DNA of 51,322 nucleotides from Micromonosporaceae bacterium (GTDB taxonomy: Bacteria > Actinomycetota > Actinomycetes > Mycobacteriales > Micromonosporaceae), in NCBI GenBank assembly GCA_007130245.1, contig SLSW01000038.1, forward strand, positions 1 to 51,322, written 5' to 3'. The translations under genes were made by a program, and so were the position numbers. This document shows positions 29 through 35,257 of the stretch, piece after piece; the first letter of the stretch is position 1; every line of letters starts with the position of its first letter. The notes under the pieces are model-generated. The model searched no databases, was not told where the DNA came from, and worked only from the letters and a program-made list of their open reading frames with translations.

Positions 29-391
29 TCAGTAGACCAGCGCGCGGGCGTCCTCGGCGAGCGTCTCCTCCACGAACGCCGCGGCGCCGGCGATGCGGAT
101 CCCCGGCAGCACGTCGGCTCCGGTGATGTCGCGCCGGGCCGCGCACTGGGTGCAGACGGTCACCGTGCCGCCGGCCAGCACCGCCTCCAGCAGGTCGGCC
201 AGCGGCGCCGCATGCGGCAGTTCGAACTCGGCGGCGCGGCCGGGCAGGGCGTACCAGGTCGACTCGCCGGTCAGCCACAGCGACACCCGGGCACCGGCGG
301 CCAGCCCGGTCGCCGCCACCGTGAACGCCTGGGCACAGCGCTCCGGGGCGTCCGCGCCGGCGGTGGCCTTGATGACGAGTGAGGCGGCCAT
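29..391 (-). CDS. DsrE/DsrF-like family protein
   Basis: A 120-residue protein resembling the DsrE/DsrF sulfur-relay fold. It has a central CTQCAARR segment and a C-terminal GIRIAGAAAFVEETL stretch typical of this fold. The two Cys of CTQC could act in sulfur or redox chemistry, which is inference. I place the start at 391 because TATGCT (399-404, minus strand) lies 7 nt before this ATG, fitting a leaderless transcript; an upstream in-frame start at 403 would lie inside that box. It is divergent from the small membrane ORF and the nitrobindin-like gene. No pathway can be assigned from sequence alone. Confidence 0.75.
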   Translation of the reverse strand: MAASLVIKATAGADAPERCAQAFTVAATGLAAGARVSLWLTGESTWYALPGRAAEFELPHAAPLADLLEAVLAGGTVTVCTQCAARRDITGADVLPGIRIAGAAAFVEETLAEDARALVY

Positions 392-440
392 GCGCCACAG
401 CATAGGATCGCGGGGTCGCAGTTACGCGAGAGGGGCGTCG

Positions 441-542
441 TTGGTTACCGAGATCGGATTCGTCAGCCTGCTGGTGGCCGGCTTCGGAGTGCTGGCCGGC
501 GGGCTGGTCTACGCGGCCGTGCGCACGGGACGCGGGCGCTGA
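441..542 (+). CDS. Small single-span membrane protein (33 aa, TTG start)
   Basis: A short ORF starting with TTG at 441, with a GAGAGGGG ribosome-binding site 5 nt upstream. It encodes a few polar residues (VTEIG), one hydrophobic helix of about 20 residues (FVSLLVAGFGVLAGGLVYAA) and a basic tail (RTGRGR). Its TGA overlaps the ATG of the next gene (TGATG), so the two are probably translationally coupled. Hydrophobicity, RBS and coupling support it being real; the non-ATG start and small size keep confidence moderate. Function unknown. Confidence 0.5.
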   Translation: MVTEIGFVSLLVAGFGVLAGGLVYAAVRTGRGR

Positions 543-1135
543 TGAGCGGCGAGGAGCAGGCGCCGCCGCCGTGGCAGGACGCGCCGGAACCCACCCCGTA
601 CCCGTACTCCGACACCGATGATCCGCGCGCCGGCCCGGACCTGCACCCGGCGCTGCTGGGGCTGCTGCCGTTCATCGGCGCGTGGCGCGGGCGCGGGCGC
701 GGCGGCTACCCGACCATCGAGGACTTCGACTACGCCCAGGAGATCCGCATCAGCCACGACGGGCGCCCGTTCCTGTCGTACGAGTCGCGGGCGTGGCTGC
801 TCGACGCCGACTCGCGGCCGGTGCGACCGGCCGGGCGGGAGAGCGGCTGGATCCGCCCGGTGGCGAACGACGGCGGCCGGCCCACCGACGAGGTGGAGGT
901 GCTGTTGACCACCCCCACCGGGATCATGGAGCTGTACTACGGCCGGGTGGACGGGCTCAAGCTGGAGATTGCCACCGACATGGTGATGCGCACCGCCACG
1001 GCCAAGGAGGTCACCGCCGGGCACCGGCTGTACGGGATCGTCGAGGGTGCGCTGCTGTACGCGTACGAGATGGCTGCGGTCGGCCACGGCCTGACCCCGC
1101 ACCTGTCGGCCCGCCTGACCCGCGCGAGCTCCTGA
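542..1135 (+). CDS. Nitrobindin-like heme-binding beta-barrel protein (FABP/DUF1794 family)
   Basis: A 197-residue protein of the nitrobindin/THAP4 type. After a Pro-rich N-terminus (about 25 residues) comes HPALLGLLPFIGAWRGRG, containing the family GxWxGxG motif, then PTIEDFDYAQEI, alternating strands, and a C-terminal segment with AAVGHGLTPHLSARL whose His is the expected proximal heme ligand. Family members bind ferric heme and act on nitric oxide or peroxynitrite. It is cytoplasmic, with no signal peptide. Its start overlaps the stop of the small membrane ORF by one base. It converges on the DUF4352-like gene 11 bp downstream. Confidence 0.85.
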   Translation: MSGEEQAPPPWQDAPEPTPYPYSDTDDPRAGPDLHPALLGLLPFIGAWRGRGRGGYPTIEDFDYAQEIRISHDGRPFLSYESRAWLLDADSRPVRPAGRESGWIRPVANDGGRPTDEVEVLLTTPTGIMELYYGRVDGLKLEIATDMVMRTATAKEVTAGHRLYGIVEGALLYAYEMAAVGHGLTPHLSARLTRASS

Positions 1136-1146
1136 CACCCCAGGCG

Positions 1147-1743
1147 TCAGTCGGTCGGCGGCGTCAGCGGCAGCGGCGGGCCGCCGATGGTGACCGCTTC
1201 CCCGCGCGAGTACACGTCGAAGTGAACGCCGACGTGGGTCACGCGGCCGTGCGGCGGCAGGTCGTACTCGAACGTCGCGGTGGCGTCCTCGCCGGGCTCC
1301 AGGGTCCCGAACGGCTCCGGGTCGTCGAGCACCGGCAGGTAACGGACCCCGTCCGGGCCGTGCAGTACCTGCGCGGTGCCCGGGATGGTCAGTTCCTCCT
1401 CGCCATCGTTGCGGACGGTGATCTCCGTCGTGCAGCGTTGACCGTGCACCGTGTCGTCGTTCGCGCCGCACCGGACCTCGTGGACGACGAAGGTCGCGGT
1501 GCCCTCCCGTACCTCGGTCCCGATCGGGTTCCGGGTGGCCTCCTCGGCGATCCGGATCTGGTGCTGGGCGTGCCAGCCGATCGCGATCGCGGCCGGGCCG
1601 AGCGTGATCGCGGCGAGTCCGGTCAACGCCACCAGTCCGGCCGCGCTCGCGCGTCCGAACCGGGCGCCGCGCCCGTCCCGGGAACGGGCGGGCGCGCGGT
1701 GGCGACGGTGACGGTGACGGTGACGGTGAGTGGGTTCAGCCAT
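1147..1743 (-). CDS. Exported DUF4352-like protein with His/Arg-rich N-terminus
   Basis: A 198-residue protein: a cytoplasmic basic stretch THRHRHRHRRH (residues 4-14), one transmembrane segment (AAGLVALTGLAAITLGPAAI, about residues 33-52), then an extracytoplasmic beta-sandwich resembling DUF4352/telokin-like domains (TATFVVHEVRCG ... VRNDGEEELTIPGTAQVL ... LEPGEDATATFEYDLPP). Two Cys (RCG, RCTTEI) may form a disulfide. The start at 1743 is preferred over the longer frame (1821) because the upstream 26 residues look non-coding. The His/Arg stretch is encoded by a 6-bp tandem repeat. Function unknown; probably an envelope protein. Confidence 0.65.
   Translation of the reverse strand: MAEPTHRHRHRHRRHRAPARSRDGRGARFGRASAAGLVALTGLAAITLGPAAIAIGWHAQHQIRIAEEATRNPIGTEVREGTATFVVHEVRCGANDDTVHGQRCTTEITVRNDGEEELTIPGTAQVLHGPDGVRYLPVLDDPEPFGTLEPGEDATATFEYDLPPHGRVTHVGVHFDVYSRGEAVTIGGPPLPLTPPTD
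1704..1727. repeat. 6-bp tandem repeat (GACGGT x4) inside the DUF4352-like gene
   Basis: Four perfect copies of GACGGT on the plus strand. Read on the minus strand they encode alternating His-Arg residues near the N-terminus of the exported protein. Copy number could vary in frame. Confidence 0.85.
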
Positions 1744-1863
1744 GGACGTTCCCGCGGTAGAAATACCTGGAGGGCACAAAACGGACGTTACCCAGAAACC
1801 GAAGCAATATTCGGCTTTCACCCGAAATGCTCGGCCGGTGGGACGGGAATGTCGCCCGTACGG

Positions 1864-2790
1864 TCAGACCGGGTAACCCAGCAGCTGCTGGATGGCGGCG
1901 GTGTGCGCCGACTCCGGCAGCGGGGAACCGTCCAGCTGCCGGACCGGCACGCACCCGCGCACCGACGACGTGAACCACACCCCGTTGGTAGCCGCCAGGT
2001 CCTCCGGGCGCACCATCCGCTCGGCAGCCGTCAGACCGAGTGCACCGGCGTGCGCCAGGAGCCACCGTGCGGTCGTGCCCGCCAGGATTCCGGTATCCGC
2101 CGGCGGCACCGTGCACAACCGGGTGCCGTCCAGCCAGACCAGCGTCGAGGTCGGTGCCTCCAGCGCGTAGCCGTCAGCGGAAATCCACAGCACGTCGTCG
2201 GCGCCGTGGCGGCCGGCCCATCGTTGGGAAGCCATGTTCACCGCGTACGACAGCGACTTCGCTCCGCCCAACAACCACGGCGCATCCCGCCGCGCGTCCG
2301 CGGCCACTCCCAGCGTGGCGGTCACCACGCCGATGCCGTCGCGGCGCGCGGCCCGCATGTGCTCCGGGATCGGCCCGACGGTGGCGAAGACGGTGACCGG
2401 CCCACCCTGCTCGGGGCCACGGGTGCACACCAGTCGCAGCGCGCCTTCCACGTCCTGGCGCCAGGCCGTGCAGGCGGTGACGGCCAGATCGGTCAGGGCC
2501 GCGGCATCGGGCAGCTCCAGATCGAGCCGCGCGGCCGAGGTGGCCATCCGCGCCAGGTGCTCCGGCAGCAGCCAGGGCTTACCAGCACGTACGTGCAAGG
2601 TCTCGAAGATGCCATCCCCGCGCAGGACGCCGAGGTCGTCTGCCCGCAGCACCGGCGTGTCGACCGGCACCACGCCGCGCCCCAGCACCGCCACCACCCG
2701 CTCCTGCGGTCCTCGCGCGCTGCGGTCCTCGCTCACGCGGTGCTCGTTGGGCGTTCGCTGCGGTCCTCGCGCGCTGCGGTCCTCGCTCAC
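1864..2790 (-). CDS. pabC: Aminodeoxychorismate lyase / class IV aminotransferase
   Basis: A PLP-dependent class IV fold protein; the best guess is 4-amino-4-deoxychorismate lyase, which releases 4-aminobenzoate and pyruvate for folate synthesis. The catalytic Lys is in GGAKSLSYAVNMAS; the family signature region ALEAPTSTLVWL and the GDGIFET motif near the N-terminus are present. The family-like sequence begins at RVVAVLGRGVV; the about 29 residues before it come from two copies of a 54-bp-period repeat, each supplying GTG-SEDRSARGPQ. GTG at 2790 has TAGGCT 6 nt upstream (2797-2802, minus strand); GTG at 2736 is the alternative start. A branched-chain or D-amino-acid aminotransferase cannot be excluded. 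Confidence 0.8.
   Translation of the reverse strand: MSEDRSARGPQRTPNEHRVSEDRSARGPQERVVAVLGRGVVPVDTPVLRADDLGVLRGDGIFETLHVRAGKPWLLPEHLARMATSAARLDLELPDAAALTDLAVTACTAWRQDVEGALRLVCTRGPEQGGPVTVFATVGPIPEHMRAARRDGIGVVTATLGVAADARRDAPWLLGGAKSLSYAVNMASQRWAGRHGADDVLWISADGYALEAPTSTLVWLDGTRLCTVPPADTGILAGTTARWLLAHAGALGLTAAERMVRPEDLAATNGVWFTSSVRGCVPVRQLDGSPLPESAHTAAIQQLLGYPV
2704..2740. repeat. 37-bp direct repeat, copy 1 (start-codon repeat)
   Basis: Identical over 37 bp to 2758-2794. On the minus strand it contains GTGAGCGAGGACCGCAGC and a second GAGGACCGCAG, so it carries a potential GTG start followed by SEDRSARGPQ. Confidence 0.95.
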
Positions 2791-2794
2791 GCGG
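2758..2794. repeat. 37-bp direct repeat, copy 2 (start-codon repeat)
   Basis: Perfect copy of 2704-2740, offset by exactly 54 bp (18 codons), so the pabC frame is kept through both. Its right end supplies the GTG at 2790. Confidence 0.95.
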
Positions 2795-2832
2795 GCAGCC
2801 TATCGTCTGGGCACGTGAGCGAGGACCGCAGC
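2773..2832. repeat. 19-bp inverted repeat around a back-to-back -10 region
   Basis: Arms 2773-2791 and 2814-2832 are perfect reverse complements (CGTGAGCGAGGACCGCAGC) separated by 22 nt. Between them lie overlapping, opposite -10-like boxes: TAGGCT for the minus strand (2797-2802) and TATCGT for the plus strand (2801-2806). The plus arm is followed by a 13-codon ORF only (2815-2856), which ends over the stop codon of the next gene. Confidence 0.9.
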
Positions 2833-2852
2833 AGCGGCGAACCTCGCGGGAC

Positions 2853-3620
2853 CTAGGTGAGCGCGTCGACGATCTTGCGGGCCAGCGGCTCGTGCTTGGC
2901 GTAGTGGTTGGGAAACGCCGAGACCTGCACCCGCTGGGCGGCCACGGTGATGGGCATGTTCTCCCATCCCGGCACCCTCGCCAGCGCCTCGTAGAACTTC
3001 GTGGCCGAGTACGCCGGGTCCATGATCTGCGAGACGCTGCCCCATCCGGTGCTGGGTCGCTGCTGGAACAGCCCGACCGAGTCATGGTCGTAGCCGACGC
3101 CGTCGTTAGGGATGTTCAGCGACTGCGGATACACCGGGTTCCCGAGGTTGCGCAGGTAGGTCTCCTGCAGCGCGGTCGCGATCGCCACCACGTACGCGCG
3201 CTCGGGCAGCCCGGCCCGCTTGCCCATCGCCACGATGACCGCGGCGTGGTCCATCTGCTGCTGGGTCAGCCCGCCCACCGGCGTCGGCTTCGGCGGAGGA
3301 GCCGGCCGGGCGCTCGCCTCGACCGCCCGCGGCTGGGCCAGCGGCGGTGCCGGGGCTGGGGCCTGCGTCACCGCCTCCGAGGGCGGAGCGGCTTCCCGCG
3401 GCGCCCCCCGGGAGGACACCTCGGCTGCGGCCTCGCGGTCGCTGAGCCGGGCGCTGGCCGCAGAGGCCTCCGCGGTGAGCGCCACCGAGGACGCCCCGTT
3501 GTCCGGTGGTGGGGCGGCGGCGCTGCCGGAGACCGAGACCGTGGCGACGGCCATGACCATCAGCAGCGCGGCTGATCGCCGTCGCGTCGTCGTCCGGGGC
3601 CGGCGCGCGGCGGCTTCCAT
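2853..3620 (-). CDS. Exported transglycosylase-like protein
   Basis: A 255-residue protein. It has a basic N-terminus and a hydrophobic signal or anchor (SAALLMVMAVATVSVSGSAAA), an Ala/Pro-rich linker of about 85 residues, and a C-terminal globular domain starting at GGLTQQQMDHAAVIV. That domain has an SLT/lysozyme-like pattern: ALQETYLRNLGN (candidate catalytic Glu), GYDHDSVGLFQQRPSTGWG, and SAFPNHYAKHEP near the end. The expected role is peptidoglycan remodelling outside the membrane (inference). The start at 3620 (MEAAARRP) is chosen just before the basic/hydrophobic signal; an in-frame GTG at 3701 would add 27 Arg/Pro-rich residues. Confidence 0.7.
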   Translation of the reverse strand: MEAAARRPRTTTRRRSAALLMVMAVATVSVSGSAAAPPPDNGASSVALTAEASAASARLSDREAAAEVSSRGAPREAAPPSEAVTQAPAPAPPLAQPRAVEASARPAPPPKPTPVGGLTQQQMDHAAVIVAMGKRAGLPERAYVVAIATALQETYLRNLGNPVYPQSLNIPNDGVGYDHDSVGLFQQRPSTGWGSVSQIMDPAYSATKFYEALARVPGWENMPITVAAQRVQVSAFPNHYAKHEPLARKIVDALT

Positions 3621-3921
3621 GTGACGGTGTCGGGAGCGGTACGGTTCGGGCCGCCGGTGCCTGCCGACGCCGGGGGCCGCGTCGTTTCTGGGGGGATGCA
3701 CGCGGTCAGGTTAAACGTGGTTCCGGGGGCAAAACCGCAGGTCATAGCGTGTCCTCGGTCACTATCGGGCACCGGGTTCTGCGCGTTGGGTGCGATCCGG
3801 GCCCGCTCCTGCACCGTGGGCGATGAATCGGACTAGCCGGAAATGCCAGCCGAGTCGCCGGCAGACGTGGCCGAGCCGGGCAGCGCCCGGACCCTCGCGC
3901 GGACCGCATTATGATCGAGCG
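3621..3921. other. Divergent intergenic region between the transglycosylase-like gene and fur
   Basis: About 300 bp with no supported gene. The right end carries the fur -10 box (TATGAT, 3910-3915). An overlapping ORF on the minus strand (start about 3742) looks like chance. I looked for a cyclic-di-AMP riboswitch, common before actinobacterial cell-wall hydrolases, and did not find its conserved segments. Confidence 0.5.
3910..3915 (+). promoter_or_regulatory. -10 box of a likely leaderless fur promoter
   Basis: TATGAT is followed by CGAGCG and then the GTG start of fur. With transcription starting about 6-7 nt after the box, the mRNA would begin at the start codon. Confidence 0.55.
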
Positions 3922-4350
3922 GTGACGGACAGCTCGCTGGCCCAGGTGCTCAGGTCGCACGGGCTGCGGATGACCCCGCAGCGGCAGCTCGTGCTCGACG
4001 CGGTGCGGCAGCTGGGCCACGCCACCCCCGAGCAGGTGCACAACGCGGTGCAGCGGGTTGCCGACTCGGTCAACATCACCACCGTCTACCGGACCCTGGA
4101 GCTGCTGGAGGAGCTCGGTCTGGTCACCCACACCCACCTGTCCCACGGGGCTCCCACGTACCATCCGGCCGACGAGGACCAGCACATCCATCTCGTCTGC
4201 CGCGACTGTGGCACCGTGGAGGGCGTGGAACCGGAGCTGCTTGCTCCGCTGGCGCGGGAACTGCGGCGCCAGCGAGGCTTCGAAGTCGACATCGGTCACG
4301 TGGCGCTGTTCGGGCGCTGCGGGACGTGCGGAGGACGTGATGATCGCTGA
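3922..4350 (+). CDS. Fur-family metal-dependent regulator
   Basis: A 142-residue winged-helix repressor. The N-terminal DNA-binding part (HGLRMTPQRQLVLDAVRQLGHATPEQVHNAV, then SVNITTVYRTLELLEELGLV) is textbook Fur. The dimerisation domain has DEDQHIHLVCRDCGTVEG with the first CxxC, and the protein ends in RCGTCGG with a second CxxC, so a structural zinc site is expected. The GTG start at 3922 follows TATGAT by exactly 6 nt, suggesting a leaderless mRNA; a longer frame from 3790 has no family similarity. It overlaps ygfZ by 11 nt. The metal sensed (Fe, Zn or other) cannot be told from sequence. Confidence 0.9.
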   Translation: MTDSSLAQVLRSHGLRMTPQRQLVLDAVRQLGHATPEQVHNAVQRVADSVNITTVYRTLELLEELGLVTHTHLSHGAPTYHPADEDQHIHLVCRDCGTVEGVEPELLAPLARELRRQRGFEVDIGHVALFGRCGTCGGRDDR

Positions 4351-5419
4351 CAACGCGGTCGCGGTCGCGGCGGTCGACCCGGACTCACCGGACGCGGCAG
4401 TGGCCGCCCACTACGGGGACCCGATGAGCGAGCAGCGCACGCTGGTCACCGGCGCCGGTCTGGTCGACCGGTCCCACCGCGGCGTGCTCGCGGTGCCAGG
4501 GCCGGAGCGGCTGAGCTGGCTGCACAACCTGACCACCCAGCACCTGACCGACCTGGCGGCCGGGCAGGGCACCGAGACGCTGGTGCTGTCCCCGCACGGC
4601 CACATCGAGCACCACGCCCAGCTCACCGAGGACGGGACCACGACCTGGCTGGACACCGAGCCCGGTGCCGCGCCACCGCTGCTGGAGTTTCTGGAGCGCA
4701 TGCGGTTTCTCACCCGGGTGGAGCCGCGCGACGCCACCGGTGAGCAGGCGGTGCTGTCGCTGGTGGGCCCGCGGGTCGATGAGGCGCTCGATGTGCTCGG
4801 CGTCGAACCGCCGGCCGGGCCGGACCTGGTGCCGGTGCCGGGCCCGAAGTTCGCCACCGGCGCGGTGCCGCCGCGGCCCACCGGACGGTACGACGTCAGG
4901 TCGCTGCCGGGTGGCGGCTGGGCCCGCCGCGGCCGGCTCGGAGTGGACCTGCTCGTGCCCCGCGCACGGGTGGGCGAGGTCACCGGCGCCCTGGCCGGAG
5001 CCGGTGTCCCGGCGTGCGGGTTGTGGGCCTATGAGGCGGTGCGGGTGGCCGCCCGGGTGCCGCGGGTGGGTTTCGACACCGACCATCGCACCCTGCCGAT
5101 GGAGGTGGGCATGGTGGCGCCGGCGGTGCACCTGGAAAAGGGGTGCTACCGGGGGCAGGAGACGGTCGCGCGGGTGCACCATCTGGGCCGTCCGCCGCGC
5201 CGGATGGTGCTGGTGCACCTGGACGGCATGACCACCGATCAGTTGCCCGCACCGGGCACCGAGCTCACCACGGGCGGCCGTACGGTCGGCTTTGTCGGCA
5301 CCGCGGTGCGCCACGTCGAGCTCGGGCCCATCGCGCTGGCGGTGGTACGCCGTAACGTGGCCGACGACGCAGCGCTGCTGGTGGGCGACTCCACCGCCGC
5401 CATCGACCCGTCCGCCTGA
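4340..5419 (+). CDS. ygfZ: Folate-binding protein YgfZ (Fe-S cluster biogenesis)
   Basis: A 359-residue GcvT-like protein of the YgfZ/IBA57 family, which helps assemble or repair iron-sulfur enzymes using a folate. The diagnostic K-G-C-Y-x-G-Q-E motif is present as EKGCYRGQET near residue 270, together with WLHNLTTQHL near the N-terminus. The ATG at 4340 has GGAGGAC just upstream and lies inside the end of fur, so the two genes are co-translated; a GTG at 4337 is also possible. The pairing with a Fur regulator suggests control by metal or Fe-S status (inference). Confidence 0.9.
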   Translation: MIADNAVAVAAVDPDSPDAAVAAHYGDPMSEQRTLVTGAGLVDRSHRGVLAVPGPERLSWLHNLTTQHLTDLAAGQGTETLVLSPHGHIEHHAQLTEDGTTTWLDTEPGAAPPLLEFLERMRFLTRVEPRDATGEQAVLSLVGPRVDEALDVLGVEPPAGPDLVPVPGPKFATGAVPPRPTGRYDVRSLPGGGWARRGRLGVDLLVPRARVGEVTGALAGAGVPACGLWAYEAVRVAARVPRVGFDTDHRTLPMEVGMVAPAVHLEKGCYRGQETVARVHHLGRPPRRMVLVHLDGMTTDQLPAPGTELTTGGRTVGFVGTAVRHVELGPIALAVVRRNVADDAALLVGDSTAAIDPSA

Positions 5420-5465: not shown

Positions 5466-6338
5466 ATGAGCGCGGGAACCCTGATCACGGTGGCCCCGAC
5501 CGGGGCCGAGGCGGACAAGGCGGAGGTGCCGGCGCTGCCGGTGACCCCGGACGAACTGGTCGCCACCGCCAAGGACTGCCAGGCCGCCGGCGCCGGCATC
5601 ATCCACGTCCACATCCGCGACGACGACGCCCGACCGACCCTGGATCTGGGTCGGCTGCGCGACACCGTCGCGGCGTTGCGCACGGCGACCGACCTGGTGG
5701 TCCAGCTGTCCACCGGCGGCGCGGTCACCGACGCCGAGACCGACCGGTTGCGCGTGCTCGACGCGGCCCCGGAGATGGCCTCCTGCACCATGGGCACGGT
5801 CAACTTCGGCGACGAGGTCTTCTCCAACCGCTGGGACCTCATCGTCGCGCTGCACACCCGGATGCAGGAGCGCGGGGTGGTGCCCGAGTACGAGATCTTC
5901 GACCTGGGCCACCTGTGGTCACTGCAGCGGCTGCTGGAACGGTACGGACTGCCGGCCGGCGGGCACGTGCACGTCGACCTGGTGATGGGCGTACCGGGTG
6001 GGATGCCGGGCACCGCCGCGGCGCTGGTCGCCTGCCAGGCGGCCCTGCGTGCCCTGCCGGAGGGCACCACCTACTCGGCCACCGGCATCGGCCGCACCAC
6101 GCTGCCGGTGATGCTGGCGTCACTGTCGGCCGGTGGGCACCTGCGGGTGGGCATGGAGGACACGCTGTCGTACGCCCGCCGCCAGCCGGTCGAGTCGAAC
6201 GCGCAACTGGTCAGCCGGGCCGCCGAGCTGGCCCGGATCGCCCAGCGCCCACCGTTGACTGCCCACGAGGTGCGCCAGCTGCTGCGGATCCCGCCGGGCT
6301 CAGGCGTGCCCTCGACCGGGATCGGGCAGCAGCAGTGA
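5466..6338 (+). CDS. BKACE-type 3-keto acid cleavage enzyme
   Basis: A 290-residue TIM-barrel protein of the beta-keto acid cleavage enzyme family (DUF849), which condenses a beta-keto acid with acetyl-CoA using a divalent metal. Visible signatures: N-terminal ITVAPTGA, the metal-binding HVHIRDD, STGG, the EYEIFDLGHLW segment, and GGHLRVGMEDT near the C-terminus. The start at 5466 has GGGAGG upstream. The substrate is not predictable (3-keto-5-aminohexanoate is only the founding example). Its last 39 nt overlap the 3' end of lanM on the other strand. Confidence 0.85.
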   Translation: MSAGTLITVAPTGAEADKAEVPALPVTPDELVATAKDCQAAGAGIIHVHIRDDDARPTLDLGRLRDTVAALRTATDLVVQLSTGGAVTDAETDRLRVLDAAPEMASCTMGTVNFGDEVFSNRWDLIVALHTRMQERGVVPEYEIFDLGHLWSLQRLLERYGLPAGGHVHVDLVMGVPGGMPGTAAALVACQAALRALPEGTTYSATGIGRTTLPVMLASLSAGGHLRVGMEDTLSYARRQPVESNAQLVSRAAELARIAQRPPLTAHEVRQLLRIPPGSGVPSTGIGQQQ

Positions 6339-9263
6339 CGGCAACCGGCTGTCCGGATGCATCCGGAGCAGCTGGTACGCCACGCCGCTGAGCCCGTGCA
6401 TGAGGCCCGGGACGAACACATCGACGGTCGCGTGGCAGCGCGGCCCGTGTTCGGTCAGGCTGCTCAGCACCAGCCCGTCGAGCGTCGCGCGCTCGACGCC
6501 GTCCGGGCCGGCGCCAGCGGCAAGAGCCGAGGACATCAGCTCCCAGCTGCCGAGGTCGCCGTGGCACACCGTGTGGGTCAGTCCGAAACCGGTGCGCCAG
6601 CACAATCCCGCCGCCCGGCGCAGCGCGTCGTGCCAGCGCTGCCCGCCGTGGTGCCGCCACAGGTCGGCCGCCATGATCCCGATCCCGGCGGCGCCGTGGC
6701 ACCACCACTGCGACACCTCCCGCGGCTTGCGAAGGTCCCGCCAGCCCCCGAGATCCGGGGTGTACAGCGACTCCTCGTACCGCAGCGCCGCGTCCGCGAG
6801 CTCCGCGAACCGCGCCTGTCCGGTGGCGACCGCCAGCCGGTCGAGCGCCCAGCCGATACCCGAGACCCCGTGCGCGAACCCGCCGAGACCATCCGGTGCG
6901 CGTTCGCTCGGCCACCGCGCGCCGTGTTCGGAGTGCCGCGCCTGCGCAGCGAGGCGCTCGCCGATCTGTTCCGCTTCCCACCGCCAACGGTCCTTGCCGG
7001 TGAGGTCAGCCAGGCCCAACAGCGGCACCACCGCACCGGCCATCCCGTAGAGCACGTCGTATGTGTCGTCGACCGCGACCGATTCCGGTATCAGCTCCGC
7101 CAGCGCCTGCGCGTGGCCCAGCGCTTCGTCGACGTCGACGCCGCCGAACTCCCGCAGTAACAGCCAGCTCCAGATCCGGGACGCCAGCCCGACGTACGCG
7201 CCGGGGGGCTCCGGCCGCACCGCGGTTTCGGCACTCGCGCGCTGCTGCGCGGTCTGCTCCTCGTAGGTCCGCAACGTCCGCACCGCGTCTTCGAGCAGCG
7301 GCTCCACCTCCGGCACCGGGTCAGCCCGCCCGGCCAGCGACTCGGCCCGGTAGGCGGCCAGTGCGACCGCGACCCCGGCCACGCCACTGTAGAGATCGGC
7401 CGACAGCGGCCGGATCCGCCAACCCGTGGCGTCGAGCACCAGTGCCACCCAGCTCACGGTCCGGTCCTCGGCGCGCAGTGCTCCGTCGATGAGCCGGCGC
7501 ATGACCTGGGCGGCCGCCGTGCGACGACGCGGGTCATCGGGGTCGCTCACCACGTGGTCGGAGGGCAGCAGGTGGTGCTGGTCCTGCCTCCCGTGCTCGT
7601 CCAGAGTGCCCTGCGGGCCGCTGTCGTTGAGGTACGCGCTCACCACTGCGCTGCGGGTCACCACCCGGTCCACGGCCGGATCCAGCGCGCGCCACCGGCG
7701 CAGCGCGGTGTCGACCAGGTCCCGCGCCTGGCCCGTGGACACGCCGTGCGGCCCGGTCAGTCGCCCGTCGCGGGCGACGGTGGTGAAGACCGGGATGTCG
7801 CCGGTGAGCAGTTCGGTGACCTCCGCGTCGATGACCACTGGGTCGACCGAGGCCAGCGGCGCCGCCCGTCCCTGCTTGATCAGGACGTCGATCGCCCGTC
7901 GCCGGGCCCTCGCCTCGCGGTGCAGCGACACCGGATGCCAGAGCATCCGTGCAAGTTCGACATAGACCACCGTGTCGCGGGTGACCACCCGTATCTGGCA
8001 GTCCCGGAACGGCGTGAGCAGCTGCTCGAGCTCGCCCGAGCGGTCCAGCTCCTGCAGCCGGTCGGTGAGCGCGCCGAAGCCGTCGAGGACGTCGGTCCAG
8101 TGCCGGTCGAGTGCGGGTGTAGCGGCGGGATGGTTCGCGGCCGGCGGCACCGGCACCGTGGTGAAGTCGAGATGTGCCTCGTCCGTGCCGATGCCCACCA
8201 TGGTGGGCACCCGGAGCCGGGGCTGTTGCCCCGGCAGATGCCCGGTGGCGGAGATGTCCGCGCCCCGCAACGCCAGCGACTGTCCGCGCACCGGGAGCAG
8301 GCCCGTGCGGAGCACCGAATTGTTCACGAGTTGGGTGGCGCGGTCGGCCGCCGCGCCGAATCCCGACGCTGGCGGGGGATCCTGCGGGGTGAACAGTGTC
8401 TCGCAGTCCACCACGACCGGCACCGGGCCGGCGGCGATGACGTTGCCCGCGTGCAGGTCGCTGGCGCTGAGCAGTCGCATCAGGGCCAGCCACTGGCCGA
8501 TGCCGTAGTAGAACGCCCGCAGTTCGTCGTCGCCGGCACAGTAGCGGTGTGCGATGTGTTCGGCCCAGCCGTAGCCGTCGCGGCACACCACGCGGGGAAC
8601 GCGGAGGCGCGTCGAGTATGGCTGGTCGGCCAGGAGGCGGTTGAGCAGCCGACCCAGTTCGTGGTCCACCTCCAGCGGGCGGGGCTTGTAGTGCACGCGG
8701 CCGTCGACCAGTTCGAGGGTCATCACCGTCTCGCCGCCCTGGTGGCTGTCCCCCTCGCCAGGGGTGAGGCGGACCAGGCGCGGCGTGGCGCCGCTCAACT
8801 CCGCCACCGCGTCCCGGTCGGCCACGAACCGCTCCGCCATGCGCGCCGCCGCGGCGCACCGGTGGTCGATCATGCGGCGCAGCCGGGAGACCATGGTGGG
8901 ATAGCGCCCGGTCAGCGAGTCCCAGAACCCCGGCGTCGTCGCGGTGGTCAGCCACTCGTGCCAACGTTCCCGCGGTGTCGCGGCGGTCAGTTGGCCGGTG
9001 ACCCGCGCGGCGTTGAGTTCGAGCACCAGGACCCTGCTGACCTTGCGCCACACCTCCTGCCGCAGGGCGGCGGCGGTGCCCTCGGACACCGCCTGCCGCT
9101 CTGCGTCGCTCAACTGAGCGATGGAATCGAGCCGCCGGGCCAGGTCGGCCAGTCCCGGTCCGATCAGCTGTTCCAGGACCGGCGCCAGGTCGCTGTGCTC
9201 CAGATCGACGGGGTGGCCGTCCCCGGTGTCCGGGTCAACAGCGGGCTGGTCGTCGGTCAGCAT
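6300..9263 (-). CDS. lanM: Class II lanthipeptide synthetase LanM
   Basis: A 987-residue bifunctional enzyme that dehydrates Ser/Thr in a precursor peptide and then closes thioether rings. The N-terminal kinase-like dehydratase domain (about 60-560) keeps the expected catalytic residues: Lys193 in YKPRP, Asp269/His271/Asn274 in SDLHAGN, and Asp286 in VVDCE. The C-terminal LanC-like cyclase (about 610-987) has the zinc ligands Cys855 (WWCHGAAGIG), Cys900 and His901 (VCHGDLGS). I choose ATG 9263, which lies 7 nt after the lanA stop; the longer frame to 9347 would overlap lanA. Length is normal for LanM. The 3' end overlaps the BKACE gene by 39 nt. No LanT or protease is adjacent. Confidence 0.95.
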   Translation of the reverse strand: MLTDDQPAVDPDTGDGHPVDLEHSDLAPVLEQLIGPGLADLARRLDSIAQLSDAERQAVSEGTAAALRQEVWRKVSRVLVLELNAARVTGQLTAATPRERWHEWLTTATTPGFWDSLTGRYPTMVSRLRRMIDHRCAAAARMAERFVADRDAVAELSGATPRLVRLTPGEGDSHQGGETVMTLELVDGRVHYKPRPLEVDHELGRLLNRLLADQPYSTRLRVPRVVCRDGYGWAEHIAHRYCAGDDELRAFYYGIGQWLALMRLLSASDLHAGNVIAAGPVPVVVDCETLFTPQDPPPASGFGAAADRATQLVNNSVLRTGLLPVRGQSLALRGADISATGHLPGQQPRLRVPTMVGIGTDEAHLDFTTVPVPPAANHPAATPALDRHWTDVLDGFGALTDRLQELDRSGELEQLLTPFRDCQIRVVTRDTVVYVELARMLWHPVSLHREARARRRAIDVLIKQGRAAPLASVDPVVIDAEVTELLTGDIPVFTTVARDGRLTGPHGVSTGQARDLVDTALRRWRALDPAVDRVVTRSAVVSAYLNDSGPQGTLDEHGRQDQHHLLPSDHVVSDPDDPRRRTAAAQVMRRLIDGALRAEDRTVSWVALVLDATGWRIRPLSADLYSGVAGVAVALAAYRAESLAGRADPVPEVEPLLEDAVRTLRTYEEQTAQQRASAETAVRPEPPGAYVGLASRIWSWLLLREFGGVDVDEALGHAQALAELIPESVAVDDTYDVLYGMAGAVVPLLGLADLTGKDRWRWEAEQIGERLAAQARHSEHGARWPSERAPDGLGGFAHGVSGIGWALDRLAVATGQARFAELADAALRYEESLYTPDLGGWRDLRKPREVSQWWCHGAAGIGIMAADLWRHHGGQRWHDALRRAAGLCWRTGFGLTHTVCHGDLGSWELMSSALAAGAGPDGVERATLDGLVLSSLTEHGPRCHATVDVFVPGLMHGLSGVAYQLLRMHPDSRLPSLLLPDPGRGHA

Positions 9264-9270
9264 GTCGTGC

Positions 9271-9513
9271 TCAGCAGCACTGGATCCAGCCCCACTGGGG
9301 GTCCCAGGAGCCGGAGCACAGGCAACAGTCGCCGGTCCAGCCGCCACCGCCGCCGGTCATGGTGATCTCGAATTCGGTGTATCCGTCGGCGAACAGCGGC
9401 CCGGCCGGGTGCTCGAGACCCGCCACCGGATCGGCGCTGGTCAGCCAGCCGTTGACGATCGCTTCGGCCTGGTCAGGGGTGACCGTCGGCCGCTCGGGTG
9501 CAAGTGTTGACAT
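9271..9513 (-). CDS. lanA: Lanthipeptide precursor peptide LanA
   Basis: An 80-residue peptide directly upstream of lanM. The leader is acidic and contains HPAGPL (35-40) and an EFE segment, ending in TMTGGGGG (51-58), a plausible Gly-Gly-type cleavage site. The predicted core, 59-80, holds Thr60, Ser67 and Ser69 as dehydration sites, Cys63, Cys64, Cys66, Cys79 and Cys80 as thiols, and Trp59, Trp70, Trp74 and Trp76. A strong ribosome-binding site (AGGAGGAGG) sits about 6 nt before the ATG. Five Cys against three or four Ser/Thr means not all Cys can form thioethers. The exact cleavage site is uncertain. Confidence 0.9.
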   Translation of the reverse strand: MSTLAPERPTVTPDQAEAIVNGWLTSADPVAGLEHPAGPLFADGYTEFEITMTGGGGGWTGDCCLCSGSWDPQWGWIQCC

Positions 9514-9528
9514 GCTTTCCTCCTCCTA

Positions 9529-9596
9529 CGTTGGAGCCGGATAGATACACCGGACCATGCCAAAGATCGTTGGATACTCACTGGAAGATCGTTGGA
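9529..9596 (-). promoter_or_regulatory. lanA promoter region with direct-repeat operator
   Basis: AAGATCGTTGGA occurs at 9563-9574 and again at 9585-9596, a 22-bp period (two helical turns), and the 7-mer CGTTGGA occurs a third time at 9529-9535. On the minus strand the 12-mer pair ends at the position expected for a -35 element, upstream of a -10-like TATCTA (about 9542-9547). Repeats of this spacing next to a weak -35 are typical of activator sites such as those of SARP regulators (known of that family; the regulator is not in the window). Confidence 0.6.
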
Positions 9597-9631
9597 CGGC
9601 TACGCTCTGCAGTGCCAGGTAGGGTCTGGGC

Positions 9632-10591
9632 GTGTCCACGATCTATGGCGGTGGTGTGCCGCTCGCGCAGATGACCAGGTCCGGGTTCGTTGAGAGCCGC
9701 CACCACGGCTCGGTGGTGGTGCTCGACGGGAAGGGAGCGGTGGCCGAGGCGACCGGAGACGTGGTCGCGCCGGTCTTTCCCCGCTCGTCGAACAAGCCCA
9801 TGCAGGCCGTCGGAATGCTGCGGCAGGGCCTGCGGCCGGCAGACGCGGCCGACCTCGCGGTGATCTGCGCCAGCCACTTCGGGCAGGAGTGCCACCTGTC
9901 GCGGGTGCGGGCGATGCTGGCTGCGGCCGGACTGGACGAGGACACCCTGCAGTGCCCGCCCGACCTGCCGCTGGAGCAGGATGCGCGGGAGTCGGTGCTT
10001 CGCGCCGGGGGAGGTCCGGCGCGCGTGCAGATGAACTGTTCCGGAAAGCACACCGGCATGCTGCTCACCTGCCTGGCCGCTGGTTGGTCGTACGAGACCT
10101 ACCGCGATCCGGCGCACCCGCTGCAGCAGGGGCTGCGGGAGGCGGTGGAGGATCTGGCCGGCGAGCCGGTGACGGCCACCGGCGTGGACGGCTGCGGCGC
10201 ACCGTTGTTCGCGCTGTCGTTGACGGCGCTGGCCACCGCGTTTCTGCGCCTGGTGGACGCCGAGCCCGGCTCGCTGGAAAGGACCGTGGCCGACGCCATG
10301 CGCGCTCACCCCGACCTGGTGGCCGGCACCGGCGCGGCCGACACCCGGCTGATGGCGGGGATTCCGGGGCTGCTGGCCAAGAGCGGCGCCGAGGGGGTGG
10401 TGGCGGTGGCGATCCCCGAGGTCGGCGCGGTGGCCGTCAAGATCGACGATGGGGCGGCGCGGGCGCGCCTGCCGGTGCTGGTGTCGGCGCTGCGCCGGCT
10501 GGACCTAGGGGCGTCGGTGCTGGACGAGCTGGCCGAGACGGTGGTGCTCGGAGGCGGTGAACCGGTGGGCGCGGTCCGTCCGCTCTACTGA
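9632..10591 (+). CDS. Asparaginase (asparaginase II family)
   Basis: A 319-residue protein of the PF06089-type asparaginase family, predicted to hydrolyse L-asparagine to aspartate and ammonia. Recognisable segments are SGFVESRHHGSVVVLD, FPRSSNKPMQAVGML, NCSGKHTGMLLTCLAAGW and VDGCGAPLFALSL. No signal peptide is seen, so it is probably cytoplasmic. The GTG start at 9632 is preceded by TAGGGT (9620-9625) with 6 nt between, fitting a leaderless transcript. It is divergent from lanA and shares the 9514-9631 promoter region with it; there is no evidence of a role in lanthipeptide production. Confidence 0.88.
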   Translation: MSTIYGGGVPLAQMTRSGFVESRHHGSVVVLDGKGAVAEATGDVVAPVFPRSSNKPMQAVGMLRQGLRPADAADLAVICASHFGQECHLSRVRAMLAAAGLDEDTLQCPPDLPLEQDARESVLRAGGGPARVQMNCSGKHTGMLLTCLAAGWSYETYRDPAHPLQQGLREAVEDLAGEPVTATGVDGCGAPLFALSLTALATAFLRLVDAEPGSLERTVADAMRAHPDLVAGTGAADTRLMAGIPGLLAKSGAEGVVAVAIPEVGAVAVKIDDGAARARLPVLVSALRRLDLGASVLDELAETVVLGGGEPVGAVRPLY

Positions 10592-31911: not shown

Positions 31912-33279
31912 ATGTGGCCCGTGCGTCGCGTACCGGTCGTCCTCAGTGCTGCCGTGGTCCTGCTGTTGGCCCTGACCGCGGTGTCCTGCAACGACGACAC
32001 CGCGGACGTGGAGGTCGCCGAGGTGGACCGCGCCGACGTGGTGGAGACGGTCGACGCGCCCGCGACGGTGGTCGCCGCGGCCGCCGCGACGTTGACCGCG
32101 GCCGCCGACGGCACGCTGGCGGAGCTGCGGGTCGCCCCCGGTGACGAGGTCGCCGAGGGCGACGTCCTGGCCGTGATCGAGTCGCCGGGTGCGCAGCGCC
32201 GGTTGCAGCAGGCGGAGGAGGCACTCGCCGCCGCCGAGCAGGGCACCGCGGGCGGGCAGGTCGACAGCAGTGGTGAGCTGGTCGCTGCGCAGCGGGCCAC
32301 CGACGACGCCGCCGGGGTCGCCTTCGACCAGGCCCGCGAGGCCGCCGGCCTGATCGTCGAGCCGCAGGTGCGGCAGGCGATGCTGGCGCAGGTGGACGCC
32401 GCCGAGCAGCAGTATCTCGCGGCGTCGCGGGCCGCGCAGGAGGCGGTGCGCGCGGTGCAGGACGGCGTCGCCTCGCTGAGCGCCGCGGTCACGGCGCTGG
32501 GAACGGCGCAGCAACTGCAGGCGCAGCAAGCGTACGACCTGGCGGAGGCCACCGTGGAGGCGTTGACGCTGCGGGCGCCGTTCGACGGCGTGGTGCAGTT
32601 CGGTGGTGCCGCCCGGCCGGGAGCCGGCCTGGAGGACCTGCTCGGCGGCGCCGCGGGCCAGCTGCCGCCGGGATTCGCCGACGGCCTGCCCGACGTCGCG
32701 CCGGACGACGACGCGGGCCCGGGCGTCGATCAGTCGTTCACCGTCGGCACCCCGGTGCGGGCAGGCGCCGCGGTGCTCACCGTGGTGGACGTGACCGAGC
32801 TGGCGCTGCGCGCGGAGGTCGACGAGACCGACGTGCTGCTGGTGGCACCGGACGTGCCGGCCGAGGTGGAGCTGGACGCCGCTCCGGGGGCGGTTTACCA
32901 GGCGGTGGTGTCGGTGGTCGACGTCCTGCCGATGCCGTCGCCGCGCGGCGGGGTGGCGTACGGGGTGCGGTTGACTATCGCCGACGGCACCCTGGCCGAC
33001 GGCCGTCCTGCTCCGGAGCCCAAGCCGGGCATGAGCGCGATCGCGCGACTGCGGGTGCGCCAGGCGGAGGACGCCGTCGCCGTGCCGGCCGCGGCGGTGC
33101 TGCGCATCGACGGCGCCGACACGGTGTGGGTGGTGCGCGACGGCCGCGCCGAGCGCACCCTGGTCACCGTGGGTGCGCAGGGCCCGGACCTGGTGGAGAT
33201 CCGGTCCGGGCTGCGGGTCGGCGACCGGGTGGTGGTCCGCGGTGCGGACCTGGTCACCGAGGGCCAGCAGCTGCCGTGA
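31912..33279 (+). CDS. HlyD/MacA-type periplasmic adaptor of an ABC exporter
   Basis: A 455-residue membrane-fusion protein. It has an N-terminal signal with a possible lipobox (ALTAVSC), a biotinyl-like half (ADGTLAELRVAPGDEVAEGDVLAVIESPGAQ), a long coiled-coil hairpin rich in Ala/Glu/Gln (about 90-220), the second half (LTLRAPFDGVVQFGG) and beta-barrel domains with GMSAIARLRV and VWVVRDGRAERTLVTVG. It works with the downstream ATPase and permease. The ATG at 31912 is just after the previous stop; a GTG at 31921 with TAGCAT 7 nt upstream is an equally good start. Confidence 0.85.
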   Translation: MWPVRRVPVVLSAAVVLLLALTAVSCNDDTADVEVAEVDRADVVETVDAPATVVAAAAATLTAAADGTLAELRVAPGDEVAEGDVLAVIESPGAQRRLQQAEEALAAAEQGTAGGQVDSSGELVAAQRATDDAAGVAFDQAREAAGLIVEPQVRQAMLAQVDAAEQQYLAASRAAQEAVRAVQDGVASLSAAVTALGTAQQLQAQQAYDLAEATVEALTLRAPFDGVVQFGGAARPGAGLEDLLGGAAGQLPPGFADGLPDVAPDDDAGPGVDQSFTVGTPVRAGAAVLTVVDVTELALRAEVDETDVLLVAPDVPAEVELDAAPGAVYQAVVSVVDVLPMPSPRGGVAYGVRLTIADGTLADGRPAPEPKPGMSAIARLRVRQAEDAVAVPAAAVLRIDGADTVWVVRDGRAERTLVTVGAQGPDLVEIRSGLRVGDRVVVRGADLVTEGQQLP

Positions 33280-33319
33280 TCCCCGGCCCCGGACCACCGT
33301 CCCCGTGGGGGATTTTTTT
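33279..33319 (+). terminator. Possible T-rich terminator after the adaptor gene
   Basis: ATCCCC just after the stop codon can pair with GGGGAT around 33307-33312, and seven T residues follow (33313-33319). The long loop makes this a weak call. Confidence 0.4.
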
Positions 33320-33325
33320 GTATGG

Positions 33326-33365
33326 TTGGAGATCAACTCACGCGAACAATCCCTAGATCGACGGG
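33326..33365. repeat. Dispersed intergenic repeat, copy A
   Basis: The 27-bp end (33339-33365) matches 45858-45884 at 25 of 27 positions, both finishing in CCCTAGATCGACGGG. The stretch TTGGAGATCAA to TAGATC also matches the reverse complement of 45823-45856. Upstream GGGATTTTTTTG may be a decayed second arm. Confidence 0.85.
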
Positions 33366-33401
33366 ATGCGGGCCGGAAGTCGGGCCGGGAAGAGGGCTGA
33401 G

Positions 33402-34070
33402 GTGCTGGTCGAGGCCGAGGAGCTGACCCGCGTTTACGCCATGGGCGACACCGTGGTGGAAGCGCTGCGAGGGGTCTCCCTGCGCATCGCCTCCGGTGAT
33501 TACCTGGCGCTGGTGGGGCCCTCCGGCTCCGGCAAGTCGACCCTGATGCACCTGCTCGGCGGGCTGGACCGGCCCAGCAGCGGGCGACTGGTGATCGACG
33601 GCCAGGACGTGGCCAGCCTCAACCGCAACCAGCTGGCCCGGCTGCGCAACACCGCGATCGGGTTCGTCTTCCAGTCATTCCACCTGCTCCCGCGCACCTC
33701 GGCGGTGGAGAACGTGGCGCTGCCGCTGGTCTACCGCGGGGTGCCCGCGCGCACCCGGCGGCAGCGGGCGGCCGCGATGCTCGGACAGGTCGGGCTGGCC
33801 CACCGGCTGGACCACCGGCCGAGCCAGCTTTCCGGCGGTGAGCAGCAGCGGGTGGCGATCGCCCGGGCACTGGTCACCGGCCCGTCGGTGGTGCTGGCCG
33901 ACGAGCCCACCGGCAACCTGGACTCGGCGACCGGTCAGGCGGTGCTGCACCTGCTGGAGCAGCAGGGCGCCGCCTCCGGTGCGGCGTTGGTGCTGGTCAC
34001 CCACGATCACGAGGTCGCCGGCCGGGCGCACCGCCAGGTCATGCTGCGCGACGGCCTGGTGGTGAGCTGA
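33402..34070 (+). CDS. ABC exporter ATP-binding protein (MacB/LolD type)
   Basis: A 222-residue ATPase. It has Walker [11 protein letters not shown]-loop [21 protein letters not shown] signature LSGGEQQR, Walker [13 protein letters not shown] and switch His in LVTHDHEVA. The GTG at 33402 with GAAGAGG upstream is preferred; an ATG at 33366, directly adjacent to the repeat end, would add 12 residues. It overlaps the permease gene by 1 nt. Confidence 0.92.
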
Positions 34071-35257
34071 TGCGGCTGGCCGAGGCGTGGCGGGTGGCGC
34101 TGGGCGCGCTGCGGGCGAACCGCCTGCGCAGCGCCCTGACCATGCTCGGCGTGCTGATCGGGGTCGCCGCGGTGGTCGCGCTGGTGGCGATCGGCACCGG
34201 CACCCGCGAGGAGGTGGAGAGCCAGGTCGAGGGGCTCGGGTCGAACCTGCTGCTGGTCTTCCCGGGCGAGGCCGGTGTGGGCGCGGCCCCGGCGGTGTCG
34301 CGGCTGTCGCTGGCGGACGTGGACGCGGTCGTGCGGGTGGTCGGCGACCGGGAGCGGGTGGCGGTGCAGGTCACCTCCGGCGAGACCGTACGGGCCGACA
34401 CCGCCTCCCGCTTCACCAGCGTGCTGGGGGTGCTGGACACCACTCCGCAGGTGTTCACCCGGGACCTGAGCCGCGGCACCTACCTGACCCGTACCGACGT
34501 CGATACCAGCCGGCGGGTGGCGGTGCTGGGATCGACGGTGGCCGAGGACCTGTTCGCCGACCGGGACCCGATCGGGCGTCAGGTCACCATCGCCGGAGTG
34601 CGGTTCCGCGTGGTGGGGGTGTTCGCGCCGGTCGGCGGCCAGGGTTTCGGAGTGGACCGGGACGCCCAGGTGCACATCCCGGTGACCACCGCGCAACGCC
34701 TGCTGGGCACCGACCGCATCGACGCGCTGGCGGTGCGGGCGCCCGACCTCGACACCATCGATGAGCTGGGCGAACGGATCGTGGCGACACTGTCCGAGCG
34801 CCATCCGGACAGCGAGTTCTCCGCGGTGACCCAGGAGGAGATCATCGGCGTGCTCGGCGACATCCTCGGCATTCTCACCTGGGTGCTGGCGGCGATCGCC
34901 GGCATCTCGCTGCTGGTCGGCGGCGTGGGCGTGTCCAACATCATGCTCGTGTCGGTGCGTGAGCGGGTGCGCGAGATCGGCCTGCGCAAAGCGGTGGGCG
35001 CCCGGCCACGTGATATCGGGCTGCAGTTCCTGCTCGAGGCGGTGCTGTTGACCACGCTGGGGGGCCTGCTCGGGATCGCACTGGGGGTGGGCGGATCGCT
35101 GCTGGCGGCGGCCTACTCCCCGGTGCCGGCCACGATCACCTGGTGGTCGATCGCGCTGGCGTTCGGCGTGTCCGCGGCGGTGGGGGTGGCGTTCGGAGTG
35201 GTGCCGGCGTTGCGGGCGGGACGCCTCGACCCGGTGGTGGCGCTGCGGTCGGAATGA
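34070..35257 (+). CDS. ABC exporter permease (MacB/FtsX type)
   Basis: A 395-residue permease with an N-terminal membrane helix (SALTMLGVLIGVAAVVALVAIG), a large extracytoplasmic MacB-like domain (about 40-265), and three C-terminal helices (LGILTWVLAAIAGISLLVGGVGVSNIM; FLLEAVLLTTLGGLLGIALGV; WWSIALAFGVSAAVGVAFGVVPALRA), with the coupling segment VRERVREIGLRKAVGARPRDI. Together with the adaptor and ATPase it forms a complete MacAB-like exporter; substrate unknown. A role in exporting the lanthipeptide 25 kb away cannot be inferred. Confidence 0.9.
   Translation: MRLAEAWRVALGALRANRLRSALTMLGVLIGVAAVVALVAIGTGTREEVESQVEGLGSNLLLVFPGEAGVGAAPAVSRLSLADVDAVVRVVGDRERVAVQVTSGETVRADTASRFTSVLGVLDTTPQVFTRDLSRGTYLTRTDVDTSRRVAVLGSTVAEDLFADRDPIGRQVTIAGVRFRVVGVFAPVGGQGFGVDRDAQVHIPVTTAQRLLGTDRIDALAVRAPDLDTIDELGERIVATLSERHPDSEFSAVTQEEIIGVLGDILGILTWVLAAIAGISLLVGGVGVSNIMLVSVRERVREIGLRKAVGARPRDIGLQFLLEAVLLTTLGGLLGIALGVGGSLLAAAYSPVPATITWWSIALAFGVSAAVGVAFGVVPALRAGRLDPVVALRSE

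Follow-up and report, generated by a model that had tools for sequence, protein, structure and literature searches.

A two-gene DUF6229-type class II lanthipeptide cassette lies within a housekeeping gene pair and shares operator-like repeats with other lanthipeptide loci

The DNA analyzed here is a stretch of 51,322 nt (contig SLSW01000038.1 of the Micromonosporaceae bacterium assembly GCA_007130245.1; hereafter, "the window"), and the locus under study is a pair of minus-strand genes, lanA and lanM, separated by 7 nt (9264-9270). The first, lanA (9271..9513), encodes an 80-residue DUF6229-type class II lanthipeptide precursor, recognized by a PF19740 match and by alignment with paralogs from the same genome; the second, lanM (6300..9263; ATG at 9263, stop at 6300-6302), encodes a 987-residue class II lanthipeptide synthetase. 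On the plus strand, the two partners of a split housekeeping pair flank these genes: upstream, a gene of the beta-keto acid cleavage enzyme (BKACE) family (5466..6338), the last 39 nt of which overlap the 3' end of lanM on the opposite strand, and, downstream, a gene for L-asparaginase II (9632..10591). The intergenic region common to lanA and the asparaginase gene (9514..9631) contains a ribosome-binding site, AGGAGGAGG, before lanA, and an operator-like triple direct repeat on the minus strand, with TCCA at 11-bp spacing (GTCCAACGATCTTCCAGTGAGTATCCA; 9571..9597), that starts ~86 nt upstream of lanA; neither a sigma-70 consensus nor a terminator was found in this region. A sequence-only reading of the window had reported a precursor and a full-length LanM 7 nt apart between housekeeping genes, and this is confirmed. 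That reading had not noticed the 39-nt overlap of lanM with the BKACE gene. Its further statement, that no transporter, leader protease, tailoring enzyme, immunity gene or regulator is adjacent, holds for transporter, protease and regulator genes, none of which adjoins the pair, although the operator-like repeat does.

In profile searches, the LanM scored 543 bits against TIGR03897, a curated class II model with a cut-off of 304, and carried complete DUF4135 (E 2e-93) and LANC_like (E 9e-42) domains, with the dehydratase spanning residues 121-495 and the cyclase residues 619-979. The eight residues that the sequence-only reading had listed as catalytic (Lys193, Asp269, His271, Asn274, Asp286, Cys855, Cys900 and His901) were all found at those positions and are conserved in 15-16 of 16 aligned LanMs. 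The phosphate-elimination residues (Asp172, His174, Arg425, Arg429 and Thr431) are also in place, and alignments to the solved LicM2 and CylM agree with the residue assignments. We conclude, as far as sequence can tell, that this is a class II lanthipeptide locus, having the LanM domains, the catalytic and zinc-ligand residues, and an adjacent precursor with a Ser/Thr/Cys core, in which ring formation is predicted.

The precursor leader (residues ~1-54, ending ...EFEITMTG) matches Pfam family PF19740 (DUF6229; E 9.4e-13, 48.3 bits, cut-off 25), and the core region is GGGGWTGDCCLCSGSWDPQWGWIQCC, with one Thr, two Ser and five Cys. With three Ser/Thr available to pair with five Cys, the core is predicted to form no more than three thioether rings, and two Cys would be left free or disulfide-joined. 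A run of five Gly lies at the leader/core border; in alignments of paralogs and relatives, DUF6229 family members do not share a conserved double-Gly at the end of the leader. Judged by its leader, the precursor belongs to an already known family, and the earlier suggestion of a possibly new lanthipeptide is, as regards the kind of peptide, not supported. The core itself turned up in none of the other records searched, nor was it found described. A Dyella DUF6229 member, co-expressed with its LanM in E. coli, underwent four dehydrations, formed three (methyl)lanthionines, and was named a rhodanocin (PMC9576775); of the 27 unique class II precursors in Lysobacter, 21 are DUF6229 (PMC11451712). 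Compared with these systems (LanII of Dyella sp. 333MFSha, PMC9576775; Lysobacter, PMC11451712), the window pair has the same PF19740 leader, a LanM-type synthetase and, in the related loci examined, the same lack of an adjacent C39 protease; it differs in its Ser/Thr/Cys spacing and core sequence, which are unlike those of Dyella and Luteimonas cores, in its LanM, which is only 39% identical, in its actinomycete host, and in its operator repeats, which were not seen outside the genus. The core Ser/Thr/Cys pattern of rhodanocin sensu stricto, that of the Rhodanobacteraceae peptides, is absent: the Dyella relatives, which were compared in place of the published strain, end in ...STAGMNMFTSATTVSCGGFGGCDCC, as against GGGGWTGDCCLCSGSWDPQWGWIQCC.

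Comparison of asparaginase II loci from 29 relatives in the family shows that the BKACE gene directly precedes the asparaginase II gene in 24 of them, with coding regions -28 to +121 nt apart. They often overlap in the manner of a coupled operon, and do so in the congener G299, a one-contig genome. In the window, the corresponding distance is 3,293 nt and is filled by lanA and lanM on the opposite strand. The window BKACE frame continues for ~15 residues past the point at which its relatives end, and its stop is supplied by the antisense of the lanM tail. The GC fraction of the insert, 0.723, is that of the window, 0.724, and no terminal repeats, target-site duplication or transposase stood out at the insertion edges. 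On this comparison, the lanA-lanM pair is a 3.3-kb insert in the BKACE-asparaginase pair, the two genes of which are directly adjacent in these 24 relatives, the congener included.

DUF6229 is rare: in the order, 4 of 299 genomes have it, and in the class, 6 of 395, with the window's own genome counted in both. That genome (94.8% complete, 377 contigs) contains three DUF6229 loci, with seven precursors and four LanMs in all: the window pair, a locus on contig C67 (two lanA, one lanM), and a locus on contigs C106 and C52 (four lanA, two lanM), joined through an exact 95-base overlap of the contig ends (12584-12678 vs. 1-95) inside a lanA gene. In every outside locus examined, lanA and lanM are adjacent (G299, two loci; G118, G058, G315, G593, G588, G352 and G440; Dyella, two loci; Luteimonas, one locus), and, in G058, G352 and G440, a peptidase-less ABC exporter directly follows lanM. 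A lone lanA-lanM pair without a protease is the rule in the DUF6229 family. The core GGGGWTGDCCLCSGSWDPQWGWIQCC has a C-S-G-S ... C-C frame in common with cores of a congener (...CGTGCSGSYDPATGMHYFCC) and of G352 and G440 (...SGRCGTACSGSRTYMCC). The window LanM is at most ~53% identical to its own-genome paralogs, on which ground a recent local duplication of the pair was rejected, and it groups weakly (0.74) with LanMs from other orders of the class. An unannotated LanM of Nonomuraea gerenzanensis (NZ_LT559118.1, 8925773-8928988) is 50% identical to it and has a DUF6229-like precursor beside it. Plasmid carriage of LanA was considered and rejected: the sole record is a Nonomuraea replicon of 11.85 Mb, chromosome-sized though filed as a plasmid. 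In the C106/C52 cluster, two of the lanA genes are separated by a fragment that resembles a LanM C-terminus, and the C52 LanM (241-3048, minus strand) has lost several catalytic residues (GDSH to GVGQ, Lys193 to Arg, Arg425 to Pro) and retained its zinc ligands; by its sequence, this protein is decayed or cyclase-only, and it adjoins intact precursors.

The repeat motif was derived by comparing lanA upstream regions and was then used in a genome-wide pattern search in which the surroundings of hits were inspected. The pattern TCCA-N7-TCCA precedes every DUF6229 lanA operon of the genus, eight in number (six in the window's genome, two in G299), at -68 to -121, and is tripled in five of the eight; the recurring unit approximates CGTCCAG with four loose bases added. 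Other DNA from the same genome, 307,706 strand-bases in all, contained one TCCA pair and no triple; in the window, the triple occurs once, appears in none of 100 window shuffles, and coincides with the only TCCA pairs, which are at lanA. In the five genomes checked from other genera, the DUF6229 lanA upstream regions have no TCCA repeats, and no tandem repeats turned up in a pattern search of the congener G300, which lacks DUF6229. Class III lanthipeptide loci are also preceded by three to four TCCA repeats (the C123 locus of the window's genome, and a site directly before lanKC in G299), and four TCCA repeats (C67 3073-3110) lie ~100 nt before the gene for a peptidase-less ABC exporter beside the C67 lanM. 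Only one further site among the examined hits has at least three repeats; it adjoins dnaA and consists of DnaA-box-like sequences: that is, DnaA boxes at oriC. The description of the window pair as an orphan is correct in that the locus has only two genes; it misleads in two respects, namely that the pair is an insert in a housekeeping gene pair and that its operator-like repeats are common to all DUF6229 lanA operons of the genus, so that the lack of cognate regulation is only apparent. The class III locus on C123 (4100-10215) encodes four small precursors together with a LanKC, a berberine-bridge-type oxidase and a protein resembling S9 prolyl-oligopeptidases.

The direct repeats to which SARPs bind recur at intervals of one helical turn, 11 bp (PMC10936776, PMC5930380), and repeats of this type and spacing are present upstream of the lanA start in the window. 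Contig C67 encodes, beside its lanM, a 261-residue SARP with BTAD and Trans_reg_C domains; in G299, a 62% ortholog of this SARP adjoins the corresponding lanM locus, and in G300 the best match is 35%. Because the 11-bp direct repeat has SARP geometry, and because the C67 SARP is linked to, and co-occurs with, DUF6229 lanM, it is a candidate activator of the window pair in trans, and its candidacy is well supported by anatomy. A SARP of 261 residues, CinR1, activates the cluster for the class II lanthipeptide cinnamycin (PMC6974636). The cinnamycin-type clusters (cin, kya and dur, with SARPs CinR1, KyaR1 and DurR1; PMC6974636) resemble the system proposed here in being actinomycete class II lanthipeptide clusters with a small SARP of 260-261 residues and SARP sites before biosynthetic genes; they differ in that their SARP is encoded in the cluster, whereas the SARP proposed here would control scattered class II and class III loci in trans, and in that leader and core are unrelated. 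No earlier description of a lanthipeptide SARP regulon was found in the literature searched, the coverage of which was partial.

We propose, with a probability of roughly 0.68, that the window pair is a two-gene class II cassette with a DUF6229 leader, inserted in a housekeeping pair, activated through its TCCA repeats by a SARP encoded elsewhere, and served by shared, non-C39 export and processing. According to this proposal, the cassette was inserted between the BKACE and asparaginase genes and could lack a regulator of its own because its activator, most likely the small C67 SARP, is encoded elsewhere; that activator would bind the 11-bp TCCA repeats at ~-86 and switch on the pair and, together with it, the remaining class II loci and the class III locus. 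After binding the conserved leader (NPAGPLFADGYTEFEITMTG-like), LanM would phosphorylate core Thr and Ser, eliminate water, and form as many as three (methyl)lanthionine rings; shared, unlinked, non-C39 functions would serve for export and leader removal. We lean slightly towards the broader view that one small SARP of the genus runs a dispersed regulon, comprising several two-gene or few-gene lanA-lanM cassettes with different cores, the class III locus and possibly one exporter, under a common operator.

Several observations weigh against the proposal. The window's genome has 14 SARP-like matches, among which the C67 protein is favored by linkage and co-occurrence only, in three genomes of the genus; the -10 element usual for SARP promoters, 8 bp from the last repeat, is not recognizable in the window; the repeats before the C67 exporter gene are inverted, on the strand opposite to that gene; G299 has no clear ortholog of that exporter; and the repeat unit was derived from the same promoters in which it was counted. 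The independent part of the repeat evidence is the class III and exporter sites, which were found after the motif had been derived. At a sister promoter (C52up), TATGTT stands ~8 bp from the last repeat, as read by eye.

An alternative, which we consider unlikely, is that the pair is a decayed or silent orphan, which arrived in the BKACE-asparaginase operon with no partners and is either not expressed or not matured. The lack of an adjacent transporter or protease and of a recognizable sigma-70 promoter would fit this alternative, as would the loss of catalytic residues from the sister C52 LanM, which indicates that decay occurs in the genome; however, the lanM frame is open over its full length and retains every catalytic residue, lanA, with its leader intact, is preceded by a strong ribosome-binding site and a triple operator, and the two-gene architecture is the norm among relatives.

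PhoP boxes are likewise 11-bp direct repeats. A second alternative, to which we give a little less weight still, is that the pair is functional but has no dedicated activator, its TCCA repeats being the target of a different OmpR-type regulator of 11-bp geometry (PhoP/RegX3, of the phosphate response) that places it under nutrient control. AfsR and PhoP bind overlapping sequences (PMC10936776), and genes that read as PhoU-like, sensor kinase-like and response-regulator-like lie at ~24.4-27.1 kb of the window; yet no TCCA pair is present in the PhoU/kinase intergenic region, where autoregulatory PHO boxes would be expected, or anywhere else in the window than at lanA, and G300 lacks both the tandem repeats in the pattern search and an ortholog of the C67 SARP. 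As the regulator of these sites, a PhoP-type response regulator is the chief rival of the C67 SARP.

For export and leader removal, the sequence-only reading had held that a locus with only lanA and lanM must rely on genes elsewhere, and this is supported: no peptidase C39 was found in the window's genome, in either of the two congeners searched (including G299, with its two DUF6229 loci), or in G118 or G058. The precursor is accordingly unlikely to be of the LanT/C39-processed double-Gly type, no C39 transporter having been found in the genome or in two congeners; in some DUF6229-bearing actinomycete genomes, C39 domains occur on contigs other than those with lanA-lanM. That the precursor is a classical substrate of a LanT (C39) transporter which escaped notice through incompleteness of the draft genome is very improbable. 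The idea could draw on the five-Gly run and on the completeness and contig number given above, but against it stand the non-conservation of the double-Gly in family members, the absence of C39 also from one-contig G299, G118 and G058, and the failure of the C39 protease LahT150 to cleave the Dyella DUF6229 member (PMC9576775). Because the genome has no C39 peptidase and the leader-end double-Gly is not conserved, leader removal must, on this evidence, be by something other than a C39 peptidase. The C67 ABC exporter, which has no peptidase, is preceded by inverted repeats and lacks a clear ortholog in G299, so that it is only a candidate for lanthipeptide export. A dedicated exporter in trans of the ABC family of G058, G352 and G440 (at least 55% identical mutually) was considered and rejected, its best match in the window's genome being 34%; G118, G315 and G593 have 40-44% homologs of that family away from lanM. 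Class III lanthipeptides with unclustered proteases (PMC8960859) offer a precedent in which maturation depends on genes located elsewhere than in the cluster, with the difference that the synthetase class there is LanKC.

The locus is ordinary in kind, as a new DUF6229 class II member, and unusual in organization, as an inserted cassette apparently wired into a dispersed lanthipeptide regulon. The insertion shows lanA-lanM acting as a compact cassette that can be inserted. If the proposal is correct, a cassette dropped into a housekeeping operon would be controlled at once, using shared export and processing. Genome mining assumes self-contained clusters, and lone lanA-lanM pairs are dismissed as orphans or as unable to mature; the shared operator links these pairs with further lanthipeptide loci and with a candidate activator, and would offer a computable link to an unclustered regulator, exporter and protease. 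Expression of one SARP might then be a simple way to switch on all of the silent peptides.

Elsewhere in the window, a MacAB-like set (31912-35257) consists of an HlyD-type membrane fusion protein, an ABC ATPase and a MacB/FtsX permease; no link between this set and the lanthipeptide pair was found. On contig C237, an 801-residue protein with kinase-like and LanC-like parts, preceded by a 426-residue protein and a very Cys-rich 168-residue protein (1184-5302), marks a possible further lanthipeptide-type locus.

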